This document shows positions 6,197-48,341 of a DNA stretch of 64,000 nucleotides, piece by piece (the first letter of the stretch is position 1; each line of letters begins with the position of its first letter). The notes beneath the pieces were generated by a model that was given only the letters and a program-made list of their open reading frames with translations, ran no database searches and was not told the origin of the DNA. The stretch spans positions 124,001 through 188,000 of the forward strand of contig JAFDWX010000003.1 of the NCBI GenBank assembly GCA_018268255.1. Direction: 5' to 3'. Source of the DNA: Armatimonadota bacterium. GTDB taxonomy: Bacteria > Armatimonadota > Fimbriimonadia > Fimbriimonadales > Fimbriimonadaceae. The translations under genes and the position numbers were made by a program.

Positions 6197-6691
6197 ATGA
6201 AGATTCGAGTCCTTTTTGTGTGCGCAGGCAATATCTGCCGGTCTCCGATGGCCGAAGCCGTATTCGCGGAAATGGTCAAAGCTCGGGGGCTCACAGACGC
6301 AATCGAGTCGGATTCTGCTGGAACAGGAAGCTGGCACGAAGGAGAAGCGGCCGATCCGCGGACCCTGGCCGTCCTCCGACGGAACAAAATTCCGTATGCT
6401 GGCAGAGCGCGACAATTCCGAAGGACAGATTGGGACGAGTTCGACTATGTCATCGCAATGGACGATGATAATTTGCGCGCGTTGCGGAAACTGGGGCAAT
6501 CTGATGGCAAAGTGTCAAGGATGCTCGTGGAATTTGCCCCAACCTGTGGAGCGACTCACGTCCCAGACCCGTACTACGGACCTCCGTCGGGATTCGACCA
6601 TGTGTACGAGCTTGTGACTGCTGGTTGTGCAGGGCTCCTGGACGAAATCGAGGCTCGTCTGATCGAGGAGAATCTATTCCAGAGTTCCTAG
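6197..6691 (+). CDS. Low-molecular-weight protein-tyrosine phosphatase
   Basis: Removes phosphate from tyrosine in proteins, or possibly from arginine as in YwlE relatives. The P-loop CX5R is at residues 9-16 (CAGNICRS), and the general-acid aspartate sits in PDPYYG near residue 125. Its 164 aa and lack of a signal peptide are typical. In Gram-negative bacteria such enzymes often sit with exopolysaccharide kinases, but none is seen here. The gene runs towards GH29 and overlaps its 3' end by 18 bp. Confidence 0.9.
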   Translation: MKIRVLFVCAGNICRSPMAEAVFAEMVKARGLTDAIESDSAGTGSWHEGEAADPRTLAVLRRNKIPYAGRARQFRRTDWDEFDYVIAMDDDNLRALRKLGQSDGKVSRMLVEFAPTCGATHVPDPYYGPPSGFDHVYELVTAGCAGLLDEIEARLIEENLFQSS

Positions 6692-7933
6692 CCCCCACGC
6701 ATCTCGATCAATATCTACTCGGATAAGAGCAGGGCCTCCTGAACTCTGCTCGCCTGTGACGGTGAGATGTTCCGCCGAGTTTTCCAACGTCACTTTGCCA
6801 ACCCCAGCTTGAACGGTCACTTTCCTGATCTTCGCGGGGAGTGGGGGGAGCTGAATGGTTCCGCTGCCCCAATCCAGCACGTGGAAGTAGATCGCCTTTC
6901 CTTTGCGGGTGGTTCCACCCCATTGCGCATTCTTGTACGGTCCGCCACGCGTTCCGTAGATGCTCTCGCCATGAGCCGAAGTCCACTTGCCCAGTGCTTT
7001 GAGAATGGTGATCTGTTCCGGTGGAATTTCGCCGTTGGGCATGGGGCCCACGTTAAGGAGAAGGTTGCCATCGCCCGTGACGGTCCGGATGAGCACTTCA
7101 ATGACCTTCGCAGCCGACTTATAGTGATCGCCTGGGCGAAATGCCCATTGGTCGCCCATCGTCATGCAGGTTTCCCACGGCTTGCTGGTGTCGTATGCCC
7201 CAATCTCTTGCTCGGGAGTCCCGTAGTCGCCTCTTGGATCACCGGGTTGCAGATCGCGCGAGTTGATACGGTTGTTGATGACCAATCCTGGCGCCTTTTT
7301 CCGAAGCATCTGGTTGAGCGCAACGGAGTAAGTTCGAGTGTAGGGAGCTTCCCACTGGCCATCGAACCAGATCATCTTCACGCCATAGCGGTCGATCAGT
7401 TCCGACACCTGCTCGGCGACGACCTTCATATGGCGTTCCATATTGGGATTTGACTTGCTGTGTCCCAAGCGATCGAGCGGATAGTCTGGGCTCCGCCAAT
7501 CCAAGATCGAGTAATACGTGCACATCGCGATCCCGTTCTTCTTGGCTGCCTCGGCAAGTTCGCCCATGATATCGCGTCCAAAAGGAGACTGGGAGATGTT
7601 GTAGTTGAACGGGTCGTGCTTGGACGGCCAGAGCATGAAGCCGTCGTGGTGCTTGGCCGTTGGAACAACGTAACGCATTCCGGCCTCTTTGGCCAGTTTC
7701 ATCCAGGCGCCCGCGTCAAATTTCTTGGGGTCGAACTGTTTGTACAACGAATCGTATTCTTCGGCAGGGATCGGGTCCTGTCGGCTCCAGCCGATCTCCG
7801 TGCCTTTGATGCTCACAGGACCCCAATGAATGAACATGCCGAGCCTCGCATGGGTGAACCAATCCATGTGGTGCGGTGCGGGGCCGGAACTGTGGGTAAG
7901 AGCCATGGTCGCGAAGAGCACTGGAGCCAGCAT
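6674..7933 (-). CDS. Secreted alpha-L-fucosidase, GH29
   Basis: Hydrolyses alpha-L-fucosides, such as those on xyloglucan side chains or glycoproteins. An N-terminal hydrophobic leader of about 15 residues suggests export. The catalytic barrel opens with DWFTHARLGMFIHWG, continues with AKHHDGFMLWPS, and carries the nucleophile aspartate in MIWFDGQW near residue 175. A small C-terminal beta domain completes the 419 aa, the length of a minimal GH29. It lies 23 bp downstream of the GH27 gene on the same strand, so the two are likely co-transcribed. Confidence 0.9.
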   Translation of the reverse strand: MLAPVLFATMALTHSSGPAPHHMDWFTHARLGMFIHWGPVSIKGTEIGWSRQDPIPAEEYDSLYKQFDPKKFDAGAWMKLAKEAGMRYVVPTAKHHDGFMLWPSKHDPFNYNISQSPFGRDIMGELAEAAKKNGIAMCTYYSILDWRSPDYPLDRLGHSKSNPNMERHMKVVAEQVSELIDRYGVKMIWFDGQWEAPYTRTYSVALNQMLRKKAPGLVINNRINSRDLQPGDPRGDYGTPEQEIGAYDTSKPWETCMTMGDQWAFRPGDHYKSAAKVIEVLIRTVTGDGNLLLNVGPMPNGEIPPEQITILKALGKWTSAHGESIYGTRGGPYKNAQWGGTTRKGKAIYFHVLDWGSGTIQLPPLPAKIRKVTVQAGVGKVTLENSAEHLTVTGEQSSGGPALIRVDIDRDAWGLGTLE

Positions 7934-7956
7934 AATCGGAGTCTAGTCCATCTGCA

Positions 7957-9180
7957 CTAACACCCGTCGCAGCCTGCCTTCCGTACTCGCTGGTGTTGGA
8001 TTTTTGCGTCACTGGGAGCAGGGGTGACTTTGTACATGACCACATCATGCGGCTGGACATGAGCCTCTACGTACCGATCAAAGGTACCAACCTCCTGCGC
8101 GGTCCAAAGATCCAAAACGTGGCAAGGCCGATGGTCGTGGATGGCCAACGCTGCCCACGGGGCGACCATCGTTCTGGCGCGGTCGCCGTTAAAGTTAAAA
8201 AACGCAACAGCGATCGAGCCGTCTGAAAGTGGTTTTGACCAGACTTGAAAATCCTGACCCTCCCAATCTTTGTCGTTGTAACCTATTCCACGTCCCTGCA
8301 CTCCCAACGGGTCTTGGTTGACGCTGATAAATCCTGGGTTTAGGAGAATCTGCTTGGTGGCAACTGTTGCTTTGCGCACATCGCAACCGATCATGAGCGG
8401 TGAGGCGAGCATGCACCACAGAGCGAAGTGAACTTTGTATTCGGTGTCGCTCATTCCGCCATCGGCTGCATTGCCCCTGCCGTACATTCCGACCACGAGC
8501 ATGTCAGGGTCGTTCCACGCGTTCGGGCCTGCATAGACTTCGAGCCCAGCCTGCTTTTCCGCGATATTGAGCATGCTGTCCCAGCTATCGACGATGTCGC
8601 CCGTGGTTCTCCACATGTGCGCTCCGGCGAATCGGCCCCAAGTCGCTGGATTGTTATGCCCCCACTCGCACGCGCTGAACAGGATCGGACGCCCAGTTGC
8701 CCTGAGTGCCTGCCCCATTTTTCGGTAGAGCTCGGGCCCACTCACGCCCATGGGCTTGTAGCAGTAGTCGTATTTTAAGAAGTCCACCCCCCATTCAGCA
8801 AACGTTTGGGCGTCCACTTCCTCGTATCCGTAGCTTGCGGGTTTGCCTGCACATGTTCGTATGCCAGAACAGGAGTAGATTCCAAATTTCAGCCCTTTGG
8901 AGTGGATGTAATCGGCCAAAGCAGGAATGCCGCTTGGGAATTTATCAGTGTCCCACGTGAGCTTGCCATCTGCTGTGCGCTCATCTGCTTCCCAGAGATC
9001 GTCGATGACTACATACTCGTATCCAGCGTCTTTGTAGCCATCCCTCACGAAAATATTGGCCACGTCCTTGACCAGTTTTTCGTCGATATTTTCGCCAAAT
9101 GTATTCCAGGAGTTCCAACCCATCGGTGGGGTGGGCGCGATTATGCTGCGGCAATCCATTGAGTTCAGTTTACAGGCCAT
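7957..9180 (-). CDS. Alpha-galactosidase, GH27
   Basis: Releases alpha-linked galactose. The GH27 hallmarks are clear: PPMGWNSWNTFG near the start, YVVIDDLWE, the nucleophile in FLKYDYC and the acid/base aspartate in WNDPDMLVVG. There is no signal peptide, so it is probably cytoplasmic. Two ATG starts are possible, seven codons apart (9180 and 9159), and neither has a strong ribosome binding site. It is followed by the GH29 gene on the same strand. The tail after about residue 385 is short and cysteine-containing and unlike the family core. Confidence 0.9.
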   Translation of the reverse strand: MACKLNSMDCRSIIAPTPPMGWNSWNTFGENIDEKLVKDVANIFVRDGYKDAGYEYVVIDDLWEADERTADGKLTWDTDKFPSGIPALADYIHSKGLKFGIYSCSGIRTCAGKPASYGYEEVDAQTFAEWGVDFLKYDYCYKPMGVSGPELYRKMGQALRATGRPILFSACEWGHNNPATWGRFAGAHMWRTTGDIVDSWDSMLNIAEKQAGLEVYAGPNAWNDPDMLVVGMYGRGNAADGGMSDTEYKVHFALWCMLASPLMIGCDVRKATVATKQILLNPGFISVNQDPLGVQGRGIGYNDKDWEGQDFQVWSKPLSDGSIAVAFFNFNGDRARTMVAPWAALAIHDHRPCHVLDLWTAQEVGTFDRYVEAHVQPHDVVMYKVTPAPSDAKIQHQRVRKAGCDGC

Positions 9181-9997: not shown

Positions 9998-11518
9998 TTA
10001 TGCGCCTGTAGCTTTCAGAGGTTTTGTGGCGGGCGAGTGAATCACTTCGCCATCTGGGCTGAACCGCGATCCATGGCAAGGGCAGTCCCACGTTTTCTCG
10101 GCGTTGTTCCACGCTACTTGGCACCCCATATGTGTGCAGTCCGCGCTCACTGTGTGGAGTGCGCCTTGGGCATCTCGGTAGGCCGCTACTCGTCCCTCTG
10201 AGGTCTGGAGCACTTGGGCTTCTCCGGGAACCAGATCCTCGGCCGAGCGAGTCTCAACCGCCTTCACTTTGTCGCCGATGTACTGGGCAGCAACGTTTAA
10301 GTTTTCTTTGAGTAAGTCTGGCAGCATATCCAGGACGAACCGACTCGGATTGTAAAGTTCCTCCCAGGCATGGTTTTCGCACACTATCTGTTTGGCCAAA
10401 ATGTGCGCCGCGACTCGCCCCGTTGTCATGCCCCATCCGCCAAATCCGGTTGCAACAAAGATGTTCTCCTTGCCAGGCGACTTCCCGATGAACGGTCTGT
10501 GGTCGGGTGTCCAATTGTCTTGGGTTGACCAATGCGCATAGATGGATTCGACCTGGTAGTGGGTGCGTGCCCAATCTTCCAGAGCCTGAAAGCACGCTGC
10601 CGAATCGGTTGATTGGCCCACTTTGTGGTTCTCTCCTCCCACGATGAGAACCGGTTCGCCGTATGCGAAGGCGGGGCGGGTGGATCGCATTCCTTCCTCC
10701 TCGTGGCCGATGAACATCCCCGGCGGCACAGGTTCGGATAGCTTGACCGCGATTGCATAGGAACGGTACGGAGCCAATTTCGCCACAAAAAATCCGGAAT
10801 CTAGGATCGGATAGTGCGTGGATAGCACCACTTGCGTTGCGGTAACTTCGCCGCCAAAGTATCGAAGCCGACAGACACCTGATGAATCGTCGATCTCTGT
10901 AATTCTTGAGTTCTCGAAGACGTGCACATTGGCTTGGGCGCATTGGCTCAAGATTGCCAGCAGGAAATTTCTGGGGTGAAAGTGAGCCTGGTTGGGGAAT
11001 TTGAGGACCGCACGCCCGCCGTGGCGTGGATCTGGGCTTCGAACGACCTCGTGCGGAATGGCTGCCTCTGTCAGTGCGTCCGTCTCCGACTCCAGATCCG
11101 TATCGCTGGACTCCTCGTGGATCACCACATGGGCATCGGCGCGGGTGATATCGCAGGGAATGTTCTCGAGCTCAGCCATTGTGCGAATGTCCGTGATGGC
11201 CCATTCATTGGCATCAAAGTACTTCCGGGCTCCCTCCACACCGAGGTCTTTTCGGATCCTGTCGTAGATTAAGCCGTGCTGGCTGGTGAGCTTTCCGGTT
11301 GTATATCCGGTTACACCCTGGAGGATCTTCTCCCCTTCGATCAGCGCAACTCTCAGGCCGGTTTGACGCAATTCATAGGCAGTCATGATGCCGACAATCC
11401 CCGCACCAACAATTGCCACGTCGAAGTGCTCCCCCGGCGGGAGAACCGGATATTTTGGCTCCAGCGAGGTTTTGATCCAAATCGACTGGGTGTCAGCTGG
11501 TGAGAAGTTTCCGCTCAT
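9998..11518 (-). CDS. FAD-dependent oxidoreductase with C-terminal Rieske domain
   Basis: An N-terminal DAO-type flavin oxidoreductase is fused to a Rieske iron-sulfur domain. The FAD dinucleotide motif (VGAGIVGIMTAYEL) starts near residue 36, and the FAD-binding finish FVATGFGGWGMTTG is near 360. The Rieske centre at the C-terminus has both ligand pairs, CTHMGC and CPCHGSRF, so a 2Fe-2S cluster is expected. Many bacteria carry this fusion (506 aa is normal), but the substrate is not established; a stress or redox role is inferred. No signal peptide is seen. Confidence 0.88.
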   Translation of the reverse strand: MSGNFSPADTQSIWIKTSLEPKYPVLPPGEHFDVAIVGAGIVGIMTAYELRQTGLRVALIEGEKILQGVTGYTTGKLTSQHGLIYDRIRKDLGVEGARKYFDANEWAITDIRTMAELENIPCDITRADAHVVIHEESSDTDLESETDALTEAAIPHEVVRSPDPRHGGRAVLKFPNQAHFHPRNFLLAILSQCAQANVHVFENSRITEIDDSSGVCRLRYFGGEVTATQVVLSTHYPILDSGFFVAKLAPYRSYAIAVKLSEPVPPGMFIGHEEEGMRSTRPAFAYGEPVLIVGGENHKVGQSTDSAACFQALEDWARTHYQVESIYAHWSTQDNWTPDHRPFIGKSPGKENIFVATGFGGWGMTTGRVAAHILAKQIVCENHAWEELYNPSRFVLDMLPDLLKENLNVAAQYIGDKVKAVETRSAEDLVPGEAQVLQTSEGRVAAYRDAQGALHTVSADCTHMGCQVAWNNAEKTWDCPCHGSRFSPDGEVIHSPATKPLKATGA

Positions 11519-34648: not shown

Positions 34649-34705
34649 CAGTTGGCAAGCGATCCATTCGGAGCATCCTATGCGCTTGCTTGCAAAGAGG
34701 AAGGA

Positions 34706-35734
34706 ATGAACACAAAACTCGCTGCTCTGTCCCTCTTCGCGCTCGGCGCGATGTTTTTGGGAGGTTGTGGTTCATCCACTACCACCGAGGAACCTGCCAA
34801 GACTCCTGAGGCAAAAGCCAATACAACGACGCCCGGATCGGCGGCGGGTGATCTCGATGCCAAAGGGCTCAAACTCGGCTTTGCCCAAGTCGGCGCAGAG
34901 AGTGGCTGGCGCACAGCAAACACTGAATCGATTAAGGCAGAGGCTCAAGCTCGCGGAGTGGATCTGAAGTTCGCCGATGCTCAACAAAAGCAAGAGAACC
35001 AAATCAAGGCCATTAAGTCGTTCATCGCGCAGGGCGTCGACGTGATTGCCTTTTCACCTGTCGTCGAAACAGGTTGGGAACCCGTACTCCAAGAGGCCAA
35101 AAAGGCTGGAATTCCAGTCATCATCTCCGACCGAAGAGCTGATGTGCCGGATGATCTTTACGCGACCTTTATCGGCAGCGACTTCATTAAGGAAGGCCAG
35201 ATGGCGGGCGATTGGCTGGCCAAGAAGCTTAATAACAAGGGCAACATCGCAGAACTGACCGGCACGCCCGGTAGTGCTCCGGCAAACGATCGCGCCAAGG
35301 GCTTCCGACAGGCGCTTGAAGGCAAGGCTGACCTCAAAATCGTGTTCACCCAAACCGGCGACTTCACCCGAGCGAAGGGCAAGGAAGTGATGGAGGCTTT
35401 GATGAAGAGCCCGACAGGTTCCACGCTAAACGCTGTATTTGCCCACAACGATGATATGGCTCTGGGCGCGATCCAAGCTATTGAAGAAGCAGGGAAGAAG
35501 CCAGGATCTGACATCATCGTCGTCTCCATCGATGGCGTGCACGATGCATTCCAAGCGATGGTTGATGGCAAGCTCAACTGCACCGTGGAGTGCAACCCAC
35601 TATTGGGCAAAGCGATCATCGATGCGGCAGCCAAGGTCAAGAAGGGCGAGACCTTGCCCAAGCGGACTGTCATCGAAGACGGCATTTTTGATCAGAGCGT
35701 TGCCGCCAAAGAGCTACCGAATCGCAAGTACTGA
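34706..35734 (+). CDS. ytfQ: YtfQ-type furanose-sugar ABC transporter binding lipoprotein
   Basis: Periplasmic/extracellular ligand-binding lipoprotein (type I fold). Leader MNTKLAALSLFALGAMFLGG ends at Cys21, followed by a flexible Thr/Pro linker. GWRTANTESIKAEA, QQKQENQIKAIKSF, TGWEPVLQEAKKAGIPV and FTRAKGKEVMEAL match E. coli YtfQ, which binds galactofuranose, closely over the whole length. GAGG lies 5 bp before ATG 34706; the frame starts earlier at 34652 but without a signal. Here it heads an operon of hydroxyproline catabolic genes, so its physiological ligand is uncertain. Confidence 0.86.
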   Translation: MNTKLAALSLFALGAMFLGGCGSSTTTEEPAKTPEAKANTTTPGSAAGDLDAKGLKLGFAQVGAESGWRTANTESIKAEAQARGVDLKFADAQQKQENQIKAIKSFIAQGVDVIAFSPVVETGWEPVLQEAKKAGIPVIISDRRADVPDDLYATFIGSDFIKEGQMAGDWLAKKLNNKGNIAELTGTPGSAPANDRAKGFRQALEGKADLKIVFTQTGDFTRAKGKEVMEALMKSPTGSTLNAVFAHNDDMALGAIQAIEEAGKKPGSDIIVVSIDGVHDAFQAMVDGKLNCTVECNPLLGKAIIDAAAKVKKGETLPKRTVIEDGIFDQSVAAKELPNRKY

Positions 35735-37227
35735 TGGAGTCTCTGCTTCAACTGCAGGGATTGGAAAAGCGGTTCCCCGGGACCGTTGCATTGGATCACG
35801 TGGACTTCGACCTCTATGAGGGCGAGGTCCACGCCCTTATGGGAGAAAATGGCGCCGGCAAAAGCACCCTGATCAAGGCCCTGACGGGAGTCCATCCGCC
35901 CGATTCGGGGACAATGTCCCTTCAAGGGAAGCTTATCTTGCCACAGTCGCCCGAGGACGCAGTCCGACACGGCATCAGCACGGTTTATCAAGAAGTCAAT
36001 CTTGTTCCCAACCTCACGGTGATGGAGAATCTGCTCCTGGGTCGGGAGCCCCGGGGACCCTTTGGAATTCGATGGAAGGAGATGCGTGAGCGCGCGGAGT
36101 CTGCCATCGCTCGGTTGGGCTTGAAACTCGATGTCCGAGCACCGCTAAGCTCCCTGTCGGTCGCGTTGCAGCAGATGGTCGCCATCTCTCGCGCCCTGGA
36201 TGTGAGTGCGAAAGTCCTGATTTTGGACGAACCCACCTCGAGCCTAGACTCCGACGAAGTCGCCGCACTCTTTACGGTCATTCGCCAACTCAAGGCTCAG
36301 GGTTTGGGAGTTATCTTCGTCACTCACTTTTTGGATCAGATGTACGAGATCTCGGACCGAATTACCGTTCTTCGTAACGGCAAAAAGGTTGGCACGTGGA
36401 ATGCGACCGACCTACCGAGATTGGAACTGGTGACCCAGATGATCGGCCGAGATGCATCCGAGTTGGAAAGATCCGACTCGGTATTAGCGGATGCCGCGTT
36501 GGGTTCGCCGATCTTGGAGACGAAGGGTTTGGGACGCCGAGGTTCGGTATCCGAGGTGACGCTTTCGGTCTCACCTGGGGAGACCGTGGGATTGGCCGGA
36601 CTCTTGGGCTCAGGCCGAACTGAGACTGTAAAGCTCCTTTTTGGCGTTGCCTCCCCAGATTCAGGGTCGCTCAAACTCGACGGCAGATCCCTGGCTCGAC
36701 TCAAACCTAAATCAGCGATCCGGGCCGGAATCGGATACTGCTCGGAAGATCGAAAACGCGAAGGTATCTTCCCAGAACTCACAGTCCGAGAAAACATTCT
36801 CATTCTTGCCCAGGTGAAAAGCGGGTGGTATAAACCATTTTCGCTCCAAAAGCAGCGTTCGATGGCCACCGATCTCGTTGGACGCCTGAAAGTTCAGCCA
36901 GCCGATATCGAGCGTCCCATTCAGACCCTGAGCGGCGGCAACCAGCAGAAAGCTCTTTTGGCTCGCTGGCTGGCTGTCGAGCCGCGACTCCTGCTCTTGG
37001 ATGAACCGACCCGGGGAATCGACGTTGGAGCGAAGTTCGAGATCATGGCCCTGGTCGAGAATCTGCGGCAAGCGGGCCGATCGTTCGTCTTTGTGTCATC
37101 CGAACTCCCCGAAATCGTACGGTCGTGCACCAAAGTGCTGGTGATGCGCGACCGCAAAGCCATCAAGGAGCTTGAATCGGGCGCCGTGTCCGAAGAACGC
37201 ATTGTTCAGGAGATCGCCGGATCATGA
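35734..37227 (+). CDS. ytfR: Sugar ABC transporter ATP-binding protein (YtfR/RbsA type)
   Basis: Tandem ATPase with two ABC cassettes (497 aa). The first carries Walker A MGENGAGKST and Walker B ILDEPTSSLD with a degenerate signature (SSLSVALQQM). The second has the degenerate P-loop LLGSGRTE, signature LSGGNQQKA and Walker B LLDEPTRGID. This asymmetry is usual for RbsA/YtfR. Its ATG overlaps the stop of the binding-protein gene by 1 bp. Confidence 0.92.
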   Translation: MESLLQLQGLEKRFPGTVALDHVDFDLYEGEVHALMGENGAGKSTLIKALTGVHPPDSGTMSLQGKLILPQSPEDAVRHGISTVYQEVNLVPNLTVMENLLLGREPRGPFGIRWKEMRERAESAIARLGLKLDVRAPLSSLSVALQQMVAISRALDVSAKVLILDEPTSSLDSDEVAALFTVIRQLKAQGLGVIFVTHFLDQMYEISDRITVLRNGKKVGTWNATDLPRLELVTQMIGRDASELERSDSVLADAALGSPILETKGLGRRGSVSEVTLSVSPGETVGLAGLLGSGRTETVKLLFGVASPDSGSLKLDGRSLARLKPKSAIRAGIGYCSEDRKREGIFPELTVRENILILAQVKSGWYKPFSLQKQRSMATDLVGRLKVQPADIERPIQTLSGGNQQKALLARWLAVEPRLLLLDEPTRGIDVGAKFEIMALVENLRQAGRSFVFVSSELPEIVRSCTKVLVMRDRKAIKELESGAVSEERIVQEIAGS

Positions 37228-38237
37228 GGCGGGTACCGAGTTGGGCTTGGGCGGCGATGGTGCTGGCGGGAGTGCTTTTGTTCAACGCGCTCTTTACGCC
37301 TGGATTCTTCTCCATCGTGATTCGCGACGGCAGGTTTTTCGGCAGCATCGTTGATATTTTCAATCGAGCAGCTCCTGTGGGGCTGCTCGCGCTTGGGATG
37401 ACCTTGGTGATCGCTACTGGTGGCGTCGATCTCTCGGTAGGAGCAGTGATGGCGATTGGGGGAACCATCGCTGCTGGTCTGATTTCGCGCCCTGGAGAAA
37501 CTCCGTTCGCGGGAGGGAAGCCGCAGCCTGCGATGGCTATTCCCGTCGCCCTTTTCGGATCGCTTTTGTGCGGGATGTTCAACGGATTGCTCGTTGCCGT
37601 GATTGAGCTGCAGCCCATTGTCGCAACCCTGCTCCTTATGGTCGCCGGTCGAGGTGTTGCCCAACTTCTAGCCAATGGCCAGATCCTCACCTTCCATGAT
37701 TCGGGCTTTGCTGCCTTGGCCCGGGGAGCGACGCTCGGAATCCCCAATCCTGTTTGGATCCTGTTGATCGGATTTGTGCTGTTTAGCGTATTAGCGCGAA
37801 AGACCGCGATGGGTCTCTTCGTGGAAGCCACCGGCAGTAATCCTGTCGCGGCCCAGTATGTTGGGATCGATGCTCGCGCGATCAGATTCGCAGTGTATGC
37901 GCTCTCTGGGCTTTGTGCTGGGATGGCCGGTCTGATCACGACTGCTGATATTCAGGCTGCCGATGCCAACAACGCTGGGTTGTATTTGGAACTCGACGCA
38001 ATTTTGGCCGTGAGCGTGGGGGGGACAGCCTTGGCGGGGGGCCGGTTCTCGCTGGTTGGCTCGATGATCGGAGCACTCTTGATGCAGGCACTCACGACCA
38101 CGATTCTCACCCGAGGGGTTTCTCCGGAAATCACGTTGGTGCTCAAGGCCGCGGTTGTCGTCGGGGTTTGCCTTCTCCAGGCTCCCGCATTTCGAGAGAT
38201 TCTCGCCAAGCGAATTCGGAGGGCGCCCGCTCAATGA
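37224..38237 (+). CDS. ytfT: Sugar ABC transporter permease (YtfT type)
   Basis: Integral membrane permease of the RbsC family, 337 aa with about 8-10 hydrophobic helices. ATGGVDLSVGAVMAIGG and GGTALAGGRFSLVGSMIGA are the family blocks. ATGA overlap with ytfR. It should pair with the second permease encoded next. Confidence 0.9.
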   Translation: MRRVPSWAWAAMVLAGVLLFNALFTPGFFSIVIRDGRFFGSIVDIFNRAAPVGLLALGMTLVIATGGVDLSVGAVMAIGGTIAAGLISRPGETPFAGGKPQPAMAIPVALFGSLLCGMFNGLLVAVIELQPIVATLLLMVAGRGVAQLLANGQILTFHDSGFAALARGATLGIPNPVWILLIGFVLFSVLARKTAMGLFVEATGSNPVAAQYVGIDARAIRFAVYALSGLCAGMAGLITTADIQAADANNAGLYLELDAILAVSVGGTALAGGRFSLVGSMIGALLMQALTTTILTRGVSPEITLVLKAAVVVGVCLLQAPAFREILAKRIRRAPAQ

Positions 38238-39211
38238 GCAGAGCTTCCCTTAAAGAAAAGCTGCCGATTTTGATCACGGCGAGCGTGTTGGTCCTTCTGA
38301 CCTTGGCAGCAGGACTTCGCTTTGACAACTTCCTGAGTTTACGCGTGCTCATGAACCTCATCGCCGACAACGCGTTTCTGGGTGTAATTGCGGTCGGGCT
38401 CACGTTCGTGATCCTTACCGGCGGGATCGATTTGAGTGTTGGATCGATGATGGGTCTGGGCGGAATTGTTGCGGCCGAGCTGATCACGGTTTCCCACGTT
38501 CATCCCCTGATCGCGCTTTTGGTGCCGATAGCCGTCGGAGGGTTCTTGGGCTGGGGGCAGGGAACCCTGATCGCCAAGTTGGGATTGCCGCCGTTCTTGG
38601 TGACCTTGTCGGGGCTGTTCCTGTGTCGTGGGATTGCTCTGGCCATCAGCCGCGAGTCGGTTCAAATAGAGCACCCGTTCTTCCGAACCCTAACGAACTG
38701 GTCGGTTTCGCTTCCGGCAAAAGCAAGTTTGTCTCTGGGATCAATCGTGTTCATCCTCGTGGTGTTCGGAGGCATGATCCTGGCACGCCAGTCGCGATTC
38801 GGACGCACGGTGTATGCCATTGGCGGCAACGCAAACTCAGCTGAACTGATGGGGCTTCCGGTACGCCGGACTCTCGTTTGGACTTACGTGCTCAGCGGGA
38901 TGTGCGCTGGGCTCGGTGGTGTGTTGTTCGCCCTCTACACCTCGTCGGGGAACGCTATCTCGGGTACGGGTCTGGAACTCGATGCCATCGCTACTGTGGT
39001 GATCGGCGGTACTCTTTTGAGCGGCGGTTACGGTTCGGTACTGGGGACTTTGCTCGGCGTTTTGACCTTGGGTGTGGTACAGACAGCCATCACGTTCATG
39101 GGCACTTTAAGTTCCTGGTGGACCCGCATCGTGATCGGCACGCTGCTCTTGTTCTTTATGCTGGTTCAAAAAGTCATTGAATTGGCAGCGCGACGGGGCC
39201 AGACAACCTAA
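38234..39211 (+). CDS. yjfF: Sugar ABC transporter permease (YjfF type)
   Basis: Second RbsC-family permease, 325 aa. TGGIDLSVGSMMGLGGI and GGTLLSGGYGSVLGTLLGV mark the family, and FMGTLSSWWTRIVIG near the end is YjfF-like. The start is the ATGA overlapping ytfT at 38234; the frame extends further upstream only inside the previous gene. Two permeases instead of one is the arrangement of the E. coli ytf/yjf locus. Confidence 0.9.
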   Translation: MSRASLKEKLPILITASVLVLLTLAAGLRFDNFLSLRVLMNLIADNAFLGVIAVGLTFVILTGGIDLSVGSMMGLGGIVAAELITVSHVHPLIALLVPIAVGGFLGWGQGTLIAKLGLPPFLVTLSGLFLCRGIALAISRESVQIEHPFFRTLTNWSVSLPAKASLSLGSIVFILVVFGGMILARQSRFGRTVYAIGGNANSAELMGLPVRRTLVWTYVLSGMCAGLGGVLFALYTSSGNAISGTGLELDAIATVVIGGTLLSGGYGSVLGTLLGVLTLGVVQTAITFMGTLSSWWTRIVIGTLLLFFMLVQKVIELAARRGQTT

Positions 39212-39218
39212 GAGCTGT

Positions 39219-40124
39219 ATGACCATGAAAGTTGATTGGAAAGGGGTGTTTCCCGCGGCGACTACTCAATTTCGAGCTGATCTCTCACTCGACCTCGAAG
39301 CAACGGCCCGTCACCTCAACGTGATGATCGAGTCCGGTGTGACCGGGTTGGTCATGTTGGGATCGTTAGGCGAGAATGTGGCGCTCACGTTTGAGGAGAA
39401 GCGAGAAGTTCTGCGAACCGCGCTCTCGGTGTCCAACGGCCGAGTCCCAGTGTTATCGGGCGTGGCCGAACTCAGCCCTGTGGCCGCAGCAGATTGGGTC
39501 CGCGAAGTTGAAAACCTGGGTTGTCAGGGCGCAATGGTCATGCCGAGCATGGCGTTTCGTCCGGATCGCCAGGAAACTTTGGCCCATTACCGCACCGTTG
39601 CTCAAGCGACCGGATTGCCGCTGATCGTCTACAACAATCCCATCAGCTATCACGCCGACGTGCTGCCGGATATGTTCGCCGAGTTAGCCGAAGTCGAGAA
39701 TCTGGTGGCGATCAAGGAATCGTCTGGAGATGTGCGCCGATTCACGGACATCATCAACGAGGTTGGCAATCGGTACATCCTGTTTGCAGGAGTCGATGAT
39801 CTGGCCATGGAATGCGCTCTGTTGGGAGCAACCGGCTGGATCGCAGGGATCGGATTGGCGTTCCCCAAAGAGAATCAGCATCTCTGGAACCTGATGATGT
39901 CGGGTCGATGGGACGAAGCTCGTGAGATTTATCGCTGGTACACGCCTCTCCTCCACTTGGATGTCGGCTCAAAATTCGTCCAGAACATCAAACTCGCGAT
40001 CCAAGAAGTAGGGCTTGGCACGGAGTACGTGCGCCTTCCACGTTTGCCCCTTTCGGGTGCGACGCGTGAAATTGTGCTCCAGACTATTCGAAACGGCATC
40101 GAGAATCGCCCCAGCCTAGCCTGA
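39219..40124 (+). CDS. 1-Pyrroline-4-hydroxy-2-carboxylate deaminase (DapA family)
   Basis: Class I aldolase-fold enzyme expected to convert pyrroline-4-hydroxy-2-carboxylate to 2-oxoglutarate semialdehyde and ammonia. The Schiff-base lysine is Lys166 in VAIKESSGD, and Tyr138 in VYNNP is the catalytic tyrosine of the family. Sequence alone cannot separate this from dihydrodipicolinate synthase, but the neighbours (hydroxyproline epimerase, FAD dehydrogenase, semialdehyde dehydrogenase) fix the role by context. I use ATG 39219, preceded by AAGAG; ATG 39225 is possible. Confidence 0.82.
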   Translation: MTMKVDWKGVFPAATTQFRADLSLDLEATARHLNVMIESGVTGLVMLGSLGENVALTFEEKREVLRTALSVSNGRVPVLSGVAELSPVAAADWVREVENLGCQGAMVMPSMAFRPDRQETLAHYRTVAQATGLPLIVYNNPISYHADVLPDMFAELAEVENLVAIKESSGDVRRFTDIINEVGNRYILFAGVDDLAMECALLGATGWIAGIGLAFPKENQHLWNLMMSGRWDEAREIYRWYTPLLHLDVGSKFVQNIKLAIQEVGLGTEYVRLPRLPLSGATREIVLQTIRNGIENRPSLA

Positions 40125-40125
40125 G

Positions 40126-41064
40126 ATGGAGCGTATCCGCGTCGTCGATTCGCATACCGGTGGTGAACCCACCCGAGTCATCCTCGAAGGTCAACTCTCG
40201 CTAGCCGGCGCAACCATGGCTGAGCGGAGAGACTATTTCCGAAATCACTATGATCGTTATCGGACAGGGGTCTTGTGTGAGCCTCGGGGAAGCGATGTTT
40301 TGGTAGGTGCCGTTCTGACAGACCCTGTCGAAACCGGCTCAGATGTGGGCGTGATCTTTTTCAACAATGTTGGCTACCTGGGAATGTGCGGCCATGGGAC
40401 GATCGGTGTTGTGGAGACTTTGCGTTTTCTGGACCGTGTCGATGTTGGACGAATCAAGTTGGACACACCCGTTGGCTGTGTGACCGCGGAACTTCACCCA
40501 TCGGGCGAGGTTTCGATCCAGAACGTTCCAAGCTATCTCCTCGCTCAAGACGTCCCGGTTGAGGTGCCCGGGGTGGGGCGCGTTGAGGGCGACATAGCCT
40601 ATGGCGGCAACTGGTTCTACATCATCCATGAGCCTGAGTATGAGATTTCACTCGCTCGCGCCAGCGAACTGACCACGTTAACACTGCGCATCATGGATGC
40701 CTTGGAAGCGGCAGGGATCACGGGTGCCGAAGGGGCCAAGATCGACCATATTGAGCTTTCTGGGAAACCTACGTTGGAGGCAGCCGATTCAAAGAACTTT
40801 GTGATGTGTCCCGGAGGAGCCTATGATCGTTCGCCCTGCGGAACTGGCACGAGCGCAAAGCTGGCATGTCTCGCAACGCGCGGTCTGCTTTCGGAGAATC
40901 AGAGCTACTTGCAGGAAAGCGTCACCGGCAGCGTGTTTCGAGGTTCGGTCATCCGAGCTGGCAGCTCATGGATACCCACCATTACCGGTCGCGCACATAT
41001 CACGGCGTCGTCCGAGTTGACCTTTGATCCTGTGGACCCGATCCGGTGGGGATTGGTGCCATGA
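40126..41064 (+). CDS. 4-Hydroxyproline 2-epimerase (proline racemase family)
   Basis: Epimerises trans-4-hydroxy-L-proline to cis-4-hydroxy-D-proline without cofactor. Both catalytic cysteines are present: Cys88 in GMCGHGT and Cys238 in SPCGTGTSA. Two cysteines exclude the trans-3-hydroxyproline dehydratases, which have a Thr in place of one. The opening RVVDSHTGGEPTRV is typical, and 312 aa is the family length. It starts 1 bp after the deaminase stop. Proline racemase is the alternative, less likely given the neighbours. Confidence 0.87.
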   Translation: MERIRVVDSHTGGEPTRVILEGQLSLAGATMAERRDYFRNHYDRYRTGVLCEPRGSDVLVGAVLTDPVETGSDVGVIFFNNVGYLGMCGHGTIGVVETLRFLDRVDVGRIKLDTPVGCVTAELHPSGEVSIQNVPSYLLAQDVPVEVPGVGRVEGDIAYGGNWFYIIHEPEYEISLARASELTTLTLRIMDALEAAGITGAEGAKIDHIELSGKPTLEAADSKNFVMCPGGAYDRSPCGTGTSAKLACLATRGLLSENQSYLQESVTGSVFRGSVIRAGSSWIPTITGRAHITASSELTFDPVDPIRWGLVP

Positions 41065-42296
41065 AGCATGTGGTCGTAATCGGCGCGGGAATCATTGGGC
41101 TGTCGTGCGCCGATGAGCTTTCTCGCCGGGGATTTCGGGTCACGATTGTCGAGCGTTCGCCCCAATCAAGCGAGGGATGCTCGTTTGGCAACGGCGGATT
41201 GATCGTGCCGAGCCACTTCGTACCCCTGGCAGCCCCAGGCATGATCCGTTACGGACTTCGACTGCTGCGTGACCCCTCTAGCCCGTTCGGCGTAATGCGC
41301 CTCACCGATCTGGAGACCATCGCTTGGATGGCTCGGTTCGCCCGTTACGCGAATGCCGATCATGTGAGGCGATGTGCCCCCGTTTTGTGTGAGATGAATT
41401 TGGCGAGCCGGGAAATCTATCGAGAGCGCATTGTCGAGTCTGGAGTCGATGTGGGTTATCAGCAAAAGGGCTTGCTGATGCTCAGCCAAACAGAGGCGGG
41501 CCACGAAGGCGAGATCCACCTTGCAGAAGATGCCCAGAGAATGGGGCTCGGAGTGGAGATTTTGGGTCGGGAAGCGGTCAAATCCCTCGAGCCAGAACTG
41601 GAGATGGATGTTGCGGGAGCAGTCTATTTTCATGACGACGCGCACTTGACTCCAGGACCCTACTTGCAGTCACTCAAGGAGAACCTGAAGGTCTCTTGGG
41701 TGGAGGCGGAAGCACAAGGAATTGCCATGGAAGGGACCCGAGCAAAAGCGCTCAAAATCACGGTTGGCGAGATAGCGGGAGATGAATTTGTGTTGGCAAG
41801 CGGGGTCTGGTCATCGTTGTTGGCGCGAACATTGGGTCTGAAGCTGATGCTTCGGGCAGGGAGAGGCTATGGTTTCACTGCACACATACCCGACCAGCGC
41901 ATGCAGATTCCGTCGATTCTAACCGAGGCTCGGGTCGCGGTCACTCCCATGCTCGATGGAATCCGATTTGTGGGCACTATGGAACTGGGCGCGCCTGACC
42001 TCACCCAGAACCTGAACCGCATTCAAGGGATGCGGAGCAACATATCGAGAGCCTATCCTCGGTTCACCCCAGAAGTCTTGGGCGGTCCCGTTTGGTGCGG
42101 GCTCAGACCGTGCTCGCCCGATGGGATGCCCTATCTCGGCAGGACCCGGCGAGCGAGTAATCTGGTGGTCGCAACTGGACACGCGATGATGGGGATGAGC
42201 CTTGGCCCCGTCACAGGCAAACTCGTCGGGGAGATTGTGTCCGACGAGAAGCCCTCCATCAGTTTGGAAACGATGTCACCTGATCGCCATGCGTAA
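41061..42296 (+). CDS. FAD-dependent D-hydroxyproline dehydrogenase/oxidase
   Basis: DadA/HpoX-like flavoenzyme expected to oxidise cis-4-hydroxy-D-proline to the pyrroline. FAD motif VVIGAGIIGLSCADEL at the N-terminus, CSFGNGGLIVPSHF with the conserved glycines, and VATGHAMMGMSLGPVTG at the C-terminus. ATG 41061 overlaps the epimerase by ATGA; 411 aa. As a single-subunit enzyme it resembles the Pseudomonas putida type rather than the multi-subunit Sinorhizobium type. The next gene overlaps by 8 bp. Confidence 0.85.
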   Translation: MKHVVVIGAGIIGLSCADELSRRGFRVTIVERSPQSSEGCSFGNGGLIVPSHFVPLAAPGMIRYGLRLLRDPSSPFGVMRLTDLETIAWMARFARYANADHVRRCAPVLCEMNLASREIYRERIVESGVDVGYQQKGLLMLSQTEAGHEGEIHLAEDAQRMGLGVEILGREAVKSLEPELEMDVAGAVYFHDDAHLTPGPYLQSLKENLKVSWVEAEAQGIAMEGTRAKALKITVGEIAGDEFVLASGVWSSLLARTLGLKLMLRAGRGYGFTAHIPDQRMQIPSILTEARVAVTPMLDGIRFVGTMELGAPDLTQNLNRIQGMRSNISRAYPRFTPEVLGGPVWCGLRPCSPDGMPYLGRTRRASNLVVATGHAMMGMSLGPVTGKLVGEIVSDEKPSISLETMSPDRHA

Positions 42297-43692
42297 TTCA
42301 ACTCCTTCAGAAATCGACTCTGTGCTTGCCTCCGCTTCCGCTGCCGGCGAAATGTATGGCAAGTTGCCAGGTGCAGCCCGAGCAGCATTCCTTGAGGCCA
42401 TCGCCTCCGGACTGGAAGCCCTTGGCGCTCCCCTCATCGAGACGGCGATGCGAGAGACCAACTTGGGACAGGTCCGACTCGAGGGCGAGAGAGCCCGGAC
42501 CACAGGACAGCTTCGAATGTTCGCGAATTTGATTCGATCAGAGCAGTGGCGAGACATTCGCATCGAGGAGGGTGACCCATCAGCACAACCCAGACCCAAG
42601 CCGGATTTGAGGCGAACACAAGTTCCTTTGGGTCCCGTTGCCGTTTTCGGGGCGAGTAATTTTCCCCTTGCATTTTCCGTACCTGGTGGCGATACGGCGA
42701 GTGCCCTTGCGGCAGGGTGTCCCGTAGTTTGCAAGGCTCACCCGTCGCACCCCGAAACCTCCCGACTGTGCGCTGATGCAATCTTGGAAGCGGCACAGCA
42801 AACTGCCATGCCCGAAGGGGTTTTCGGCATCGTTTGGGGTGGCCCAGAAACCGGCGCAGCTTTAGTTAAAGATCCTCGGATTCACGCGGTCGGGTTTACC
42901 GGTTCGCTCAAAGCCGGCCGAGCACTCTTGGACCTGGCAGCCTCGCGTCCTTGCCCGATACCCGTTTATGCCGAGATGGGGAGCGTCAATCCGGTGTTTC
43001 TGATGGAGGGCGCGCTGTCGGCCCGCTGTGAGAGCATCGCGAAAGGCTATGCGGACTCGCTCACGTTGGGAGTGGGTCAGTTCTGCACCAACCCAGGGGT
43101 CGTGGTGGGAGTCGCAAACGGTGACTGGGAGCGATTCCTGACTCTCACGGCCACGCATCTTTCCCGGGTGGAAGGGTCGCAAATGCTGAATCCTTCCATC
43201 GCGGAGTGCTACGCCACCGGGGTAAGCAATCGAGAGGCGCATCCCTCGTTGGAGGTTCTGGTAAGTGGTTCCGGCTCATCGCCCGCCCTCTTCAAGGTTT
43301 CAGGCCAAGAATTTCTGGCAGATCATAGCTTGCAGGAAGAACTTTTCGGTCCGAGTGGAATCGCGGTGGAATGTGCGTCAAGGGACGAGATGCTGGACGT
43401 TGGGCGGGCCTTGGAGGGCCAGTTGACGGCCACGATTCATTTTGAGCCAAGCGATCAAGCCAGAACCGCAAAGCTGTTGGCGGTGCTGGCCACAAAGGCA
43501 GGCAGGCTTGTGGCAAATGGATTTCCGACCGGGGTCGAGGTGAACTCAGCCATGCAGCACGGCGGGCCGTATCCAGCCACCACAGATTCCAGAAGCACGA
43601 GCGTTGGAACGGCGGCGATCTTGCGATTTGTCAGACCGATCGCATTTCAGGACTTTCCGGCCGAACTGCTTCCGGGGCATTTCGGACTGTAA
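42289..43692 (+). CDS. 2-Oxoglutarate semialdehyde (2,5-dioxovalerate) dehydrogenase
   Basis: Aldehyde dehydrogenase giving 2-oxoglutarate, the last step of the hydroxyproline pathway. Catalytic Cys266 lies in GVGQFCTNPGVVV, a signature of this subgroup; the catalytic glutamate is in PVYAEMGSVNP; GFTGSLKAGRALL is the cofactor loop. The start is ATG 42289, overlapping the dehydrogenase by 8 bp (467 aa; longer relatives have about 500-525). The product enters the TCA cycle, closing the pathway within this operon. Confidence 0.87.
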   Translation: MRNSTPSEIDSVLASASAAGEMYGKLPGAARAAFLEAIASGLEALGAPLIETAMRETNLGQVRLEGERARTTGQLRMFANLIRSEQWRDIRIEEGDPSAQPRPKPDLRRTQVPLGPVAVFGASNFPLAFSVPGGDTASALAAGCPVVCKAHPSHPETSRLCADAILEAAQQTAMPEGVFGIVWGGPETGAALVKDPRIHAVGFTGSLKAGRALLDLAASRPCPIPVYAEMGSVNPVFLMEGALSARCESIAKGYADSLTLGVGQFCTNPGVVVGVANGDWERFLTLTATHLSRVEGSQMLNPSIAECYATGVSNREAHPSLEVLVSGSGSSPALFKVSGQEFLADHSLQEELFGPSGIAVECASRDEMLDVGRALEGQLTATIHFEPSDQARTAKLLAVLATKAGRLVANGFPTGVEVNSAMQHGGPYPATTDSRSTSVGTAAILRFVRPIAFQDFPAELLPGHFGL

Positions 43693-43771: not shown

Positions 43772-44485
43772 TTACTTGCTCTTTCTTCTTCGAAAAAGGG
43801 CAGTCGCACCCAATCCAAGTGCAGCCATGGTTGCAGGCTCCGGAACGGCTTGGCCATTGATACCCATCGCCGCTTGTCGCTGGGCACCGTTGATTCCGCT
43901 GCTCGCGAGGGTGGACCATCCGGTTCCACCGGTCAGTCCGAACGAACCACCTGGGTTGCGGATCCACGAGTCATTTGCCTGGTCCGTCGATTCCATCGCG
44001 TAGGCTTGTCCCGCACCGGTGAATGCCACCATTGCCGTGGCAGTAATCAAGTAGGTGCCAGCATTGACGTTGATTCCTGCAGCATTGGTCGAAAGGGTAA
44101 ACAAGCTGCCGCTGACCCCGCTGATCGAAGACGTGCGGATTCCATCGTAAACGATGTCTAGGCCGCTGCTTACCGTTCCAGGAACGTGCTGGAGAGAAGG
44201 AGTCGAAGAGAACTTCGAAATTGTGAGGCGAACGCTGGGAGCCGCGCTCGTGCGCCACGTACCATAGTCCACATATCGTTGCTGGACATCGCTGAGCGTT
44301 ACGGCCGAACCGAACGTCACCACGTTACCGAGGCCCGTCGTGTACGTCGGGAAGTCAGAAAATTCCTGGTTAACGTATCCTGCGCCTGCATCATTGGCCT
44401 GCTTGAGATACAGGTTTCCGGAAAGCTGGGCTTGAGCGACCACGCTCAATGCAGTCGCGAAAGCTGCGATCAGTACTTTATTCAT
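43772..44485 (-). CDS. PEP-CTERM-anchored secreted protein of unknown function
   Basis: Exported protein with a signal peptide (about residues 1-19, ending AQA) and a PEP-CTERM sorting tail (VPEPATMAALGLGATALFRRRK) that would be cleaved by an exosortase. Between them is a Ser/Thr/Gly-rich beta-type region of about 190 residues, with no catalytic motif. The ribosome binding site AAGGAG lies 6 bp before the ATG. It may be a surface or extracellular-matrix protein. Confidence 0.8.
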   Translation of the reverse strand: MNKVLIAAFATALSVVAQAQLSGNLYLKQANDAGAGYVNQEFSDFPTYTTGLGNVVTFGSAVTLSDVQQRYVDYGTWRTSAAPSVRLTISKFSSTPSLQHVPGTVSSGLDIVYDGIRTSSISGVSGSLFTLSTNAAGINVNAGTYLITATAMVAFTGAGQAYAMESTDQANDSWIRNPGGSFGLTGGTGWSTLASSGINGAQRQAAMGINGQAVPEPATMAALGLGATALFRRRKSK

Positions 44486-46726: not shown

Positions 46727-47275
46727 CTATCGTTCAGCTGCTTTCATGGCGTTCCGAAGCTGGGTTTCCGCCTCATCCGACCAATAGCCGCATTCCAGCT
46801 GAAAGAAAACGCTGGTGTAGGGTTGTGTGTGGGGAGTTTTGATGAGCAACACCTTGAAGGTCTTTCCTGCTTCATCCAGTTTGGAAATGATCTTCTCATG
46901 GAGCAGGCGATTCACGTGCTTCCCCTTGAGTACGCTCTCCAATGAAGCTCGATATTTGGTAATGCCGGGCGCGTTCTTTTCTGCTACAAATTTGAGCTCG
47001 GAATCCACCAGGATATTGGGTCGCACGTGCTTAGTCTTGGCCAGCGCCGCCAGGACCTGCTTCACGGCAGAGATCTGGTCCACATCCACGGCGATGGTTT
47101 CGATACCGGGAGCCGTTTGAAGTGGATAAGCGGAATCCGCCACTACGATCCAGTTGCGGTGCCCCAAGGCAGGCAGCTTGTTCGTGACCAGCTTCTCCAC
47201 CGACCCTCGAACCGGTGCGCCGGCAACGGCAGCGGTGCCAAGCGCAAATGCCAAAAGAAATGCATGTTTCGTCAT
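46727..47275 (-). CDS. Exported RbsD/FucU-like sugar mutarotase homologue
   Basis: RbsD and FucU convert sugars between anomeric or ring forms inside the cell. This protein carries the matching core: LPALGHRNWIVVADSAYP with the catalytic His and Asp positions of the family, and PYTSVFFQLECGYW at the end, like the RbsD PYANIILCAG close. Unusually it begins with a signal peptide (AFLLAFALGTAAVAG), so it should act outside the cytoplasm. ATG 47275 is the start consistent with that signal; the frame also opens at 47299. Length is 182 aa, with an insertion of about 40 residues. Confidence 0.7.
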   Translation of the reverse strand: MTKHAFLLAFALGTAAVAGAPVRGSVEKLVTNKLPALGHRNWIVVADSAYPLQTAPGIETIAVDVDQISAVKQVLAALAKTKHVRPNILVDSELKFVAEKNAPGITKYRASLESVLKGKHVNRLLHEKIISKLDEAGKTFKVLLIKTPHTQPYTSVFFQLECGYWSDEAETQLRNAMKAAER

Positions 47276-47329
47276 AGTGGTTGCGGCCCATGTTACCACT
47301 GGAGATTTGTCGTGTCCAACGCAAAAAAA

Positions 47330-47353
47330 GGGTGCACAGCAAGCTGTGCACCC
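47330..47353 (-). terminator. Terminator of the second PEP-CTERM gene
   Basis: An 11-bp perfect stem (47330-47340 with 47343-47353, GGGTGCACAGC / GCTGTGCACCC) is followed on the minus strand by seven T. It lies just after the stop of the gene at 47375-48130. Confidence 0.88.
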
Positions 47354-47374: not shown

Positions 47375-48130
47375 TTATTTCCTTCGGCGTCGGATCCAAG
47401 CGGCAACCCCAACACCTAACGCGATCATCGATCCCGGTTCGGGTGCGGTCACGCGGATATTGTTAATGTACGCATTGTTGCTCGCACCGAATCCGGCGTT
47501 GATATTGGTTGCTGATATCAGCGTCGGGATATTTGCTCCCGAAAGTTGCGCCGATGCCCAGACGCTGTTCGTCGCCAACGATGTGACCGAGAAGTTCCAG
47601 CCGCCAGAGCCATTCAGGATGAGTTTGGCGTGAAGGCCATCTGTGCTAAACGGCAGTCCGGAATCGACTAGCCCAGCACCCGTATCGTAAGAGTAGTTAC
47701 TTTGGCCGCCAGTGAACCCAAAGTAATAGGAACCGATGCTGAAGTAAGCCGACTGCCCGACGTCGATCCAGCCGTTGTCGAAGTCGAGTTCCACTACGCG
47801 GTATCCGGTCATCGGTACCGTGATCGCCCGGTAAATCTGTGAGAAAGAGTTGCTATTTGCGTAAAGTCCCCAGCTCTTGCCAGCCGAATCGATGTTCCCG
47901 CTGGCTCCGTTCCCGTTCTGGCTCGAGGTGTATTGGAAGTTGCCCGCCGTGTTGGAATTGGTAGCTGGTATTGAGGTCCATGGTCCGAGCCCATAACCAC
48001 CATTAAGGCCGTGGATGTTGCCGCCGGTGTACACCGGGTCAGAAGCGTCATCGAAAGCGATGTAGGCCTTCGCGATGCTCGCACTACCAACCATCAGAGC
48101 AATGGTGACGAGCTGGACAGATAACTTCAT
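47375..48130 (-). CDS. PEP-CTERM-anchored secreted protein (second)
   Basis: Exported protein of 251 aa: signal peptide (LVTIALMVGSASIAKA), a beta-rich concanavalin-like body with YIAFDDASDP and WGLYANSNSF, and the sorting tail APEPGSMIALGVGVAAWIRRRR. The ATG at 48130 has AAGGAG 6 bp upstream and fits the signal; a more upstream in-frame start at 48181 does not. It is unrelated in its body to the first PEP-CTERM protein. Confidence 0.82.
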   Translation of the reverse strand: MKLSVQLVTIALMVGSASIAKAYIAFDDASDPVYTGGNIHGLNGGYGLGPWTSIPATNSNTAGNFQYTSSQNGNGASGNIDSAGKSWGLYANSNSFSQIYRAITVPMTGYRVVELDFDNGWIDVGQSAYFSIGSYYFGFTGGQSNYSYDTGAGLVDSGLPFSTDGLHAKLILNGSGGWNFSVTSLATNSVWASAQLSGANIPTLISATNINAGFGASNNAYINNIRVTAPEPGSMIALGVGVAAWIRRRRK

Positions 48131-48341
48131 AAAATTCTCCTTACACTGGTCCGAATAACTCGTGTCGCAACTCGAACTCAATGTCCATCGTCCAATTTCA
48201 CGCGTAATGTGACTTTCATCGACTTATCTGAGCCGCTAACCGGCAGATTAGGGAGAGGTTCCAGTCCGAAAGGTCTCGGGCCAAGCTATAGCGGGGACTT
48301 CCGCTGAATCAAATCACCGGCTATTATCCAAAAGGTAGCCC

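Follow-up and report, generated by a model that had tools for sequence, protein, structure and literature searches.

Enzymes of the RbsD/FucU family interconvert the ring forms of sugars, a step that has so far been placed after import. A gene in the window (the whole 64,000-nucleotide stretch of DNA analysed here) encodes a member of this family that opens with an export-type N-terminus, which raises the question of whether the conversion takes place outside the cytoplasm and, if so, for which sugar and which importer. A first-pass annotation of the sequence had proposed an exported mutarotase that would help an importer selective for furanoses. We followed this proposal through fold, active-site residues, export signals and neighbour genes (coordinates in Table 1).

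Table 1. Features of the RbsD-like gene and its immediate surroundings, in window coordinates
Feature	Position	Strand	Basis or remark
RbsD/FucU-family protein P0001, export-type N-terminus, 182 aa	46727..47275	(-)	ATG start; Pfam, AF2 model, Foldseek, VIA-align 2
Predicted Sec signal peptide, residues 1-18 MTKHAFLLAFALGTAAVA, cleavage expected after A18	47222..47275	(-)	sequence and home-made scan
LGHRNWIVVADSAYP block, holding H39 and D47 (RbsD H20, D28)	47123..47167	(-)	both residues in 91/91 members
H126 codon (RbsD H106 equivalent)	46898..46900	(-)	91/91 members; Arg in FucU
PYTSVFF block, holding Y153 (RbsD Y128) and S155 (RbsD N130)	46802..46822	(-)	Y in 91/91 members
C-terminal extension, CGYW motif and helix, past the RbsD/FucU end	46730..46798	(-)	model and alignment
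Promoter-like site TGGACA-17-TAACAT, TG before second hexamer	47290..47318	(-)	consensus match only
Terminator-like hairpin, 3' of the preceding PEP-CTERM gene	47330..47353	(-)	sequence

An RbsD/FucU fold encoded by a solitary gene

The protein belongs to the RbsD/FucU family and has its fold, as the first-pass annotation had claimed. Residues 33-159 score 32.3 bits (E 1.6e-7) with Pfam PF05025 (RbsD_FucU), whose cut-off is 25; the same model picks up 74 of 75 aligned members at E<=1, and the window gene is the sole RbsD_FucU match in the host genome. The score with the NCBIfam D-ribose pyranase model NF008761 is 19.6 bits, below the equivalog score of 93 bits. An AlphaFold2 model of 164 residues, built with 75 sequences, reached pLDDT 94.2 and pTM 0.88, and all 21 Foldseek hits in the PDB with E<=0.001 were RbsD/FucU-family chains. 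In VIA-align 2 the model scored Z 13.5-14.2 with RbsD structures (D-ribose pyranase 3p12: Z 14.2, rmsd 2.5 over 122 residues; B. subtilis RbsD: Z 13.9) and 11.0-12.2 with FucU-type structures, against 4.2 for the next fold.

Similarity to solved RbsD/FucU proteins is weak at the sequence level (best E 0.046 with the family profile); hhalign against the single E. coli sequences found the first block only, with a probability of 12-13%, and a single-sequence PDB search returned only two STN1 chains (E 0.06), which we set aside. Other Pfam families appeared in no more than 1-4 of the 75 members apiece, with E 0.002 at best, and were taken as chance matches. A chance motif in the window protein itself is excluded by the Pfam match, the fold and 192 relatives.

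The ORF lies where the first-pass annotation had placed it, with its ATG at 47275 and its stop at 46727; a GTG stands in frame 24 bases upstream. We favour the ATG because a promoter-like site (one found, 0.4 expected) overlaps the region of the GTG. That site, lying just before the ATG, and a terminator-like hairpin further upstream (two such hairpins found in the stretch, 1.2 expected) fit both the ATG start and a single-gene transcript. The surrounding genes encode a GH43 enzyme, an RRM protein, two PEP-CTERM proteins that flank the region (43772-44485 and 47375-48181, minus strand), a Sde182-type protein and a GH2 enzyme. The RbsD-like gene has no operon partner in the window and stands alone: an operon with the GH43, Sde182-type and GH2 genes was dropped in view of the strands and the terminator-like hairpin, no ribose transport or kinase operon was found among its window neighbours, and no fuc operon genes (fucI, fucK, fucP) lie beside it there.

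Elsewhere in the window, an Rbs-type ABC importer (binding protein, ATPase, two permeases) shares one gene run (34652-43692, plus strand) with genes of the DHDPS, proline racemase, DAO and aldehyde dehydrogenase families, in what looks like a cluster for hydroxyproline uptake and catabolism. Service of the RbsD-like protein to this importer (34652-39211) was rejected, as the importer belongs to the hydroxyproline-type cluster and is no neighbour. The window also holds a DAO-type FAD-dependent oxidoreductase with a Rieske domain at its C-terminus (9998-11518, minus strand) and a GH29 fucosidase gene adjoining an alpha-galactosidase (Melibiase_2) gene (6674-9180, minus strand).

Active-site residues and export-type N-termini across the family

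Residues were counted after 91 members had been aligned to RbsD and FucU of E. coli; L082, L083, L086, L087, L090, L053 and L001, duplicates or truncated copies, were left out of this alignment and of the tree. Both blocks that the first-pass annotation had named, LGHRNWIVVADSAYP and PYTSVFF, are present in the protein. Among His20, Asp28, His106, Tyr128 and Asn130, which we take to be the active-site residues of RbsD, the first four have invariant equivalents throughout the family, but the equivalent of Asn130 is Ser in 82 and Thr in nine of the 91 members, so the expectation that the catalytic residues are kept holds for four of five. Since the replacement runs through the whole family, the activity may be altered or lost. 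R40, N41, W42, E93 and K146 are likewise invariant, and the family has motifs of its own, GHRNW and the C-terminal CGYW; of these five residues and the CGYW motif, RbsD and FucU share nothing save E93, which RbsD has. The aligned ranges of RbsD/FucU chains stop at residues 144-148 of the model.

The N-terminus, MTKHAFLLAFALGTAAVAGA, has a basic n-region and a hydrophobic core, whose best penalised 9-residue Kyte-Doolittle mean is 2.44; a cleavage-type site, A-V-A, precedes residue 19. The export-type start reported by the first-pass annotation is thus also predicted by our home-made N-terminus scan, which gives all export labels used here, those of L093, L071, L054 and L025 being doubtful. Over 96 loci, some of them copies of one gene, the scan gave 44 Sec-like, 24 lipobox and 28 signal-less N-termini; L024 (broken frame) and L094, L095 and L097 (ORF missed by the motif scan) were left out. 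Relatives classed as signal-less had Kyte-Doolittle values <=1.7, except L055, whose label was changed manually from 'none' to lipoprotein.

On a tree of 91 rows spanning several phyla, 64 rows are export-type and 27 signal-less, and the label needs four changes, against a mean of 23.7 after shuffling. Because the search for relatives started from an exported member and kept the best 80 of 192, the share of exported members is no census; the nearest named relatives among these best 80 of 192 are Armatimonadota MAGs labelled Fimbriimonas or Chthonomonas, which makes Armatimonadota the probable phylum of the host. The window protein falls within a nine-row set that is export-type throughout (support label 97), and 20 signal-less Acidobacteriaceae rows form one set (99) grouped with export-type Acidobacteriota. 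Loss of the signal in the Acidobacteriaceae set would be the simplest reading of this pattern; it stays a reading rather than a result, as the root of the tree was not inferred. With 27 of 91 rows lacking a signal, export is not essential to the role of the family. Our search of the open-access literature found no paper on an exported RbsD/FucU protein.

Glycosidase neighbours and the importer link

Neighbours were compared at 57 export-type and 22 signal-less loci, 79 in all, from named genomes (some contigs are short), in clusters made by BLAST and named by Pfam matches of their members, the naming taking in 69/112 and 50/55 chained neighbours. A GH116-like protein is encoded within three genes of 22 of the 57 export-type loci and of none of the 22 signal-less ones; at 15 export-type loci it is immediately adjacent on the same strand, mostly across short gaps, and 35 of the 57 have no GH116-like gene within three genes. 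Many of these partners start with RR (Tat-like) or Sec-like stretches. Sulfatases follow the same direction (6/57 export-type, 0/22 signal-less loci, within three genes), whereas zinc alcohol dehydrogenases (2/57 against 17/22), aldo-keto reductases (0/57 against 13/22) and GH29 enzymes (5/57 against 12/22) accompany mainly the signal-less loci. At the Acidobacteriaceae loci (within L029-L078) there is a conserved operon of aldo-keto reductase, zinc alcohol dehydrogenase, signal-less RbsD-like protein and GH29 enzyme with an RR-type N-terminus, a set that may form an oxidative fucose route.

The gene is present in 20 of 101 genomes of the host's kin, and in six (G008, G033, G037, G045, G055, G056) a GH116 match adjoins it. 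Within the host's family, carriers and non-carriers differ in GH116 (16/17 against 17/44, p 6e-5), GH29 (17/17 against 34/44, p 0.03) and GH95 (16/17 against 30/44, p 0.03), and GH43 does not co-occur (10/17 against 21/44, p 0.31), in tests that take account of neither relatedness nor genome size. Counting against a role ahead of import, RbsD/FucU proteins that score as canonical are present in other kin (G010, G089 and G096 are examples), and G094 holds a canonical-scoring protein together with one of the exported-family type.

A direct tie to an importer was seen in one genome, G014 (L122), where a lipoprotein version of the gene (ATG 10776, stop 11450) stands 12 bp ahead of the gene for an Rbs-type (CUT2) ATPase, with a permease and a binding protein next, in the order of E. 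coli rbsD-A-C-B. The nearest solved structure to this binding protein is 4joq, named an ABC ribose transporter protein. Divergent from the operon is a second Rbs-type transporter with a GH116-like gene; for a 296-aa ORF lying between a GH116-like gene and an Rbs-type permease (L122:6246-7136, minus strand), the PDB gave nothing at E<=0.001. The host has a single GH116-like gene, whose product carries a twin-arginine-type N-terminus. This gene heads an operon that also encodes the ATPase, permease and binding protein of an Rbs-type importer (L118:5306-12104, minus strand); beside it are a GntR-type regulator and a protein whose fucose isomerase matches stay below threshold. About 97 kb separate this GH116-like gene from the RbsD-like gene. 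The host GH116-like protein aligns over ~900-1060 residues, at 36-42% identity, with RbsD-linked partners from Armatimonadota, Verrucomicrobia and Planctomycetota, as against ~510-660 residues with five unlinked GH116 proteins (some cut by locus ends) and with most Bacteroidota partners. The importer link thus rests on one operon and one indirect case, as no other locus compared with G014 has an Rbs-type transporter directly attached to the RbsD-like gene. The proposal of a furanose-selective importer finds no support in this evidence: the window gene stands alone, the partner of its relatives is mostly a GH116-like gene, and a CUT2 importer is attached only in G014.

A probable mutarotase ahead of import and its known counterparts

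From the family and fold, the conserved residues, the export-type N-termini across phyla, the linkage to glycosidases and the one CUT2-importer operon, we infer actual export, mutarotase activity, a physiological role and service to an importer. Export-type N-termini are found among relatives from several phyla, whose genes often neighbour those of apparently exported sugar-cutting enzymes. Sugars are therefore probably reshaped ahead of uptake, and we think it fairly likely that a periplasmic mutarotase of the RbsD/FucU fold equilibrates the sugar freed by exo-glycosidases before its import. Glycosidases outside the cytoplasm (GH116-like, and GH29/GH95 in some lineages) would free a monosaccharide as one anomer or ring form; the RbsD-like enzyme would open and reclose its ring with His39, Asp47, His126 and Tyr153; and, with an importer taking one form of the freed sugar, the exchange would speed the supply of the form bound, as is the case with NanM and sialic acid. 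Ring-form conversion outside the cytoplasm, the core of the first-pass proposal, therefore stands as the likely role on the grounds of fold, mostly kept active-site residues and export-type N-termini.

The N-terminal signal might go unused, or the start be misread, leaving the enzyme in the cytoplasm like RbsD and FucU. The signal-less rows of the tree and the upstream GTG would allow this, yet most members, for all their sequence variation, start with a hydrophobic stretch that has Sec or lipobox features, GH116-like partners often have Tat- or Sec-like N-termini themselves, and the promoter-like site favours the ATG; we regard it as very unlikely. Of greater weight, though still improbable in our view, is that the family has left mutarotation: its scaffold may now catalyse another reaction, with a lactone, an anhydro sugar or an oxidised sugar as possible substrates, or bind sugar without catalysis. 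The family-wide Asn to Ser/Thr exchange, the invariant R40, N41, W42, E93 and K146 with the C/G/Y/W motif (unshared with RbsD/FucU save for E93 in RbsD) and the signal-less operons with zinc alcohol dehydrogenase and aldo-keto reductase, unlike classical rbs/fuc operons, would all agree with such a shift. Against it speak the invariant His20, Asp28, His106 and Tyr128 equivalents, and no member of this fold is known to have another activity.

The GH29, GH95 and sulfatase neighbours make L-fucose the leading candidate substrate. The hints as to substrate are split, however, GH29/GH95/sulfatase pointing to fucose and the GH116-like partner to something else; known GH116 enzymes act on beta-glucosides and beta-xylosides. 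That the protein is more narrowly an exported L-fucose mutarotase, the outside counterpart of FucU dedicated to alpha-L-fucosidases, strikes us as somewhat doubtful. It would suit the GH29 genes near 12 of the signal-less and five of the export-type loci, the sulfatases near six of the latter, the GH29 (20/20) and GH95 (19/20) matches in carriers among the host's kin, and the host's own six GH29 matches and one GH95 match. But 64 of 81 non-carriers have GH29 as well, the GH116-like protein that is the main partner at export-type loci is no known fucosidase, the host genome has no FucP match and a FucI match only below the cut-off, and the model lies nearer RbsD than FucU, with the RbsD His kept.

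Beyond periplasmic equilibration as such, we tentatively suggest a periplasmic module, possible though short of probable, across several Gram-negative phyla. In it a GH116-like exo-glycosidase and an RbsD-fold mutarotase would both be exported and be joined by a CUT2 importer accepting only one ring form of the freed sugar, with an Acidobacteriaceae clade having moved the mutarotase into the cytoplasm and given it dehydrogenase partners. Such a module would be previously undescribed. The domain itself is already known, being placed in RbsD_FucU by Pfam; location, signature and partners are new. If this widespread branch does act ahead of uptake, spontaneous mutarotation would not keep pace with the needs of these saccharide users, and a single enzyme and a single binding protein would suffice to test whether their importers select for an anomer or a ring form.

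Among characterised systems, D-ribose pyranase RbsD (Bacillus 1ogc, Sa240 3p12/3p13, Salmonella 3e7n) is the closest in fold, with His20, Asp28, His106 and Tyr128 retained in the window protein's family and the E. coli rbs gene order matched in G014. The window protein differs in its predicted signal peptide, its GHRNW motif, its C-terminal CGYW helix, the Ser/Thr at Asn130 and the lack of a ribose operon around its gene. L-fucose mutarotase FucU/FucM (2wcv, 4a34, 3mvk, 2wcu; Z 11.7-12.2) shares the fold and the His, Asp and Tyr, and part of the window protein's family has fucosidase neighbours; FucU is cytoplasmic and has Arg at the position of His126 and Asn at that of Ser155. NanM, a beta-propeller, has a different fold and a different sugar and is not a member of the RbsD/FucU family. 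If the mutarotase reading is right, it is a working precedent for an exported anomerase ahead of an anomer-selective importer: E. coli NanM is described as a periplasmic N-acetylneuraminate anomerase serving the use of the alpha-anomer of Neu5Ac, which enters as the beta-anomer via NanT (PMC8141875). The signal-less Acidobacteriaceae relatives have the same family motifs and roughly 50-59% identity to the window protein, but no signal and an operon with aldo-keto reductase, zinc alcohol dehydrogenase and GH29. If the export-type branch does act before import, it and these relatives would offer a natural pair, one enzyme in an exported and a cytoplasmic form, each with partners of its own.
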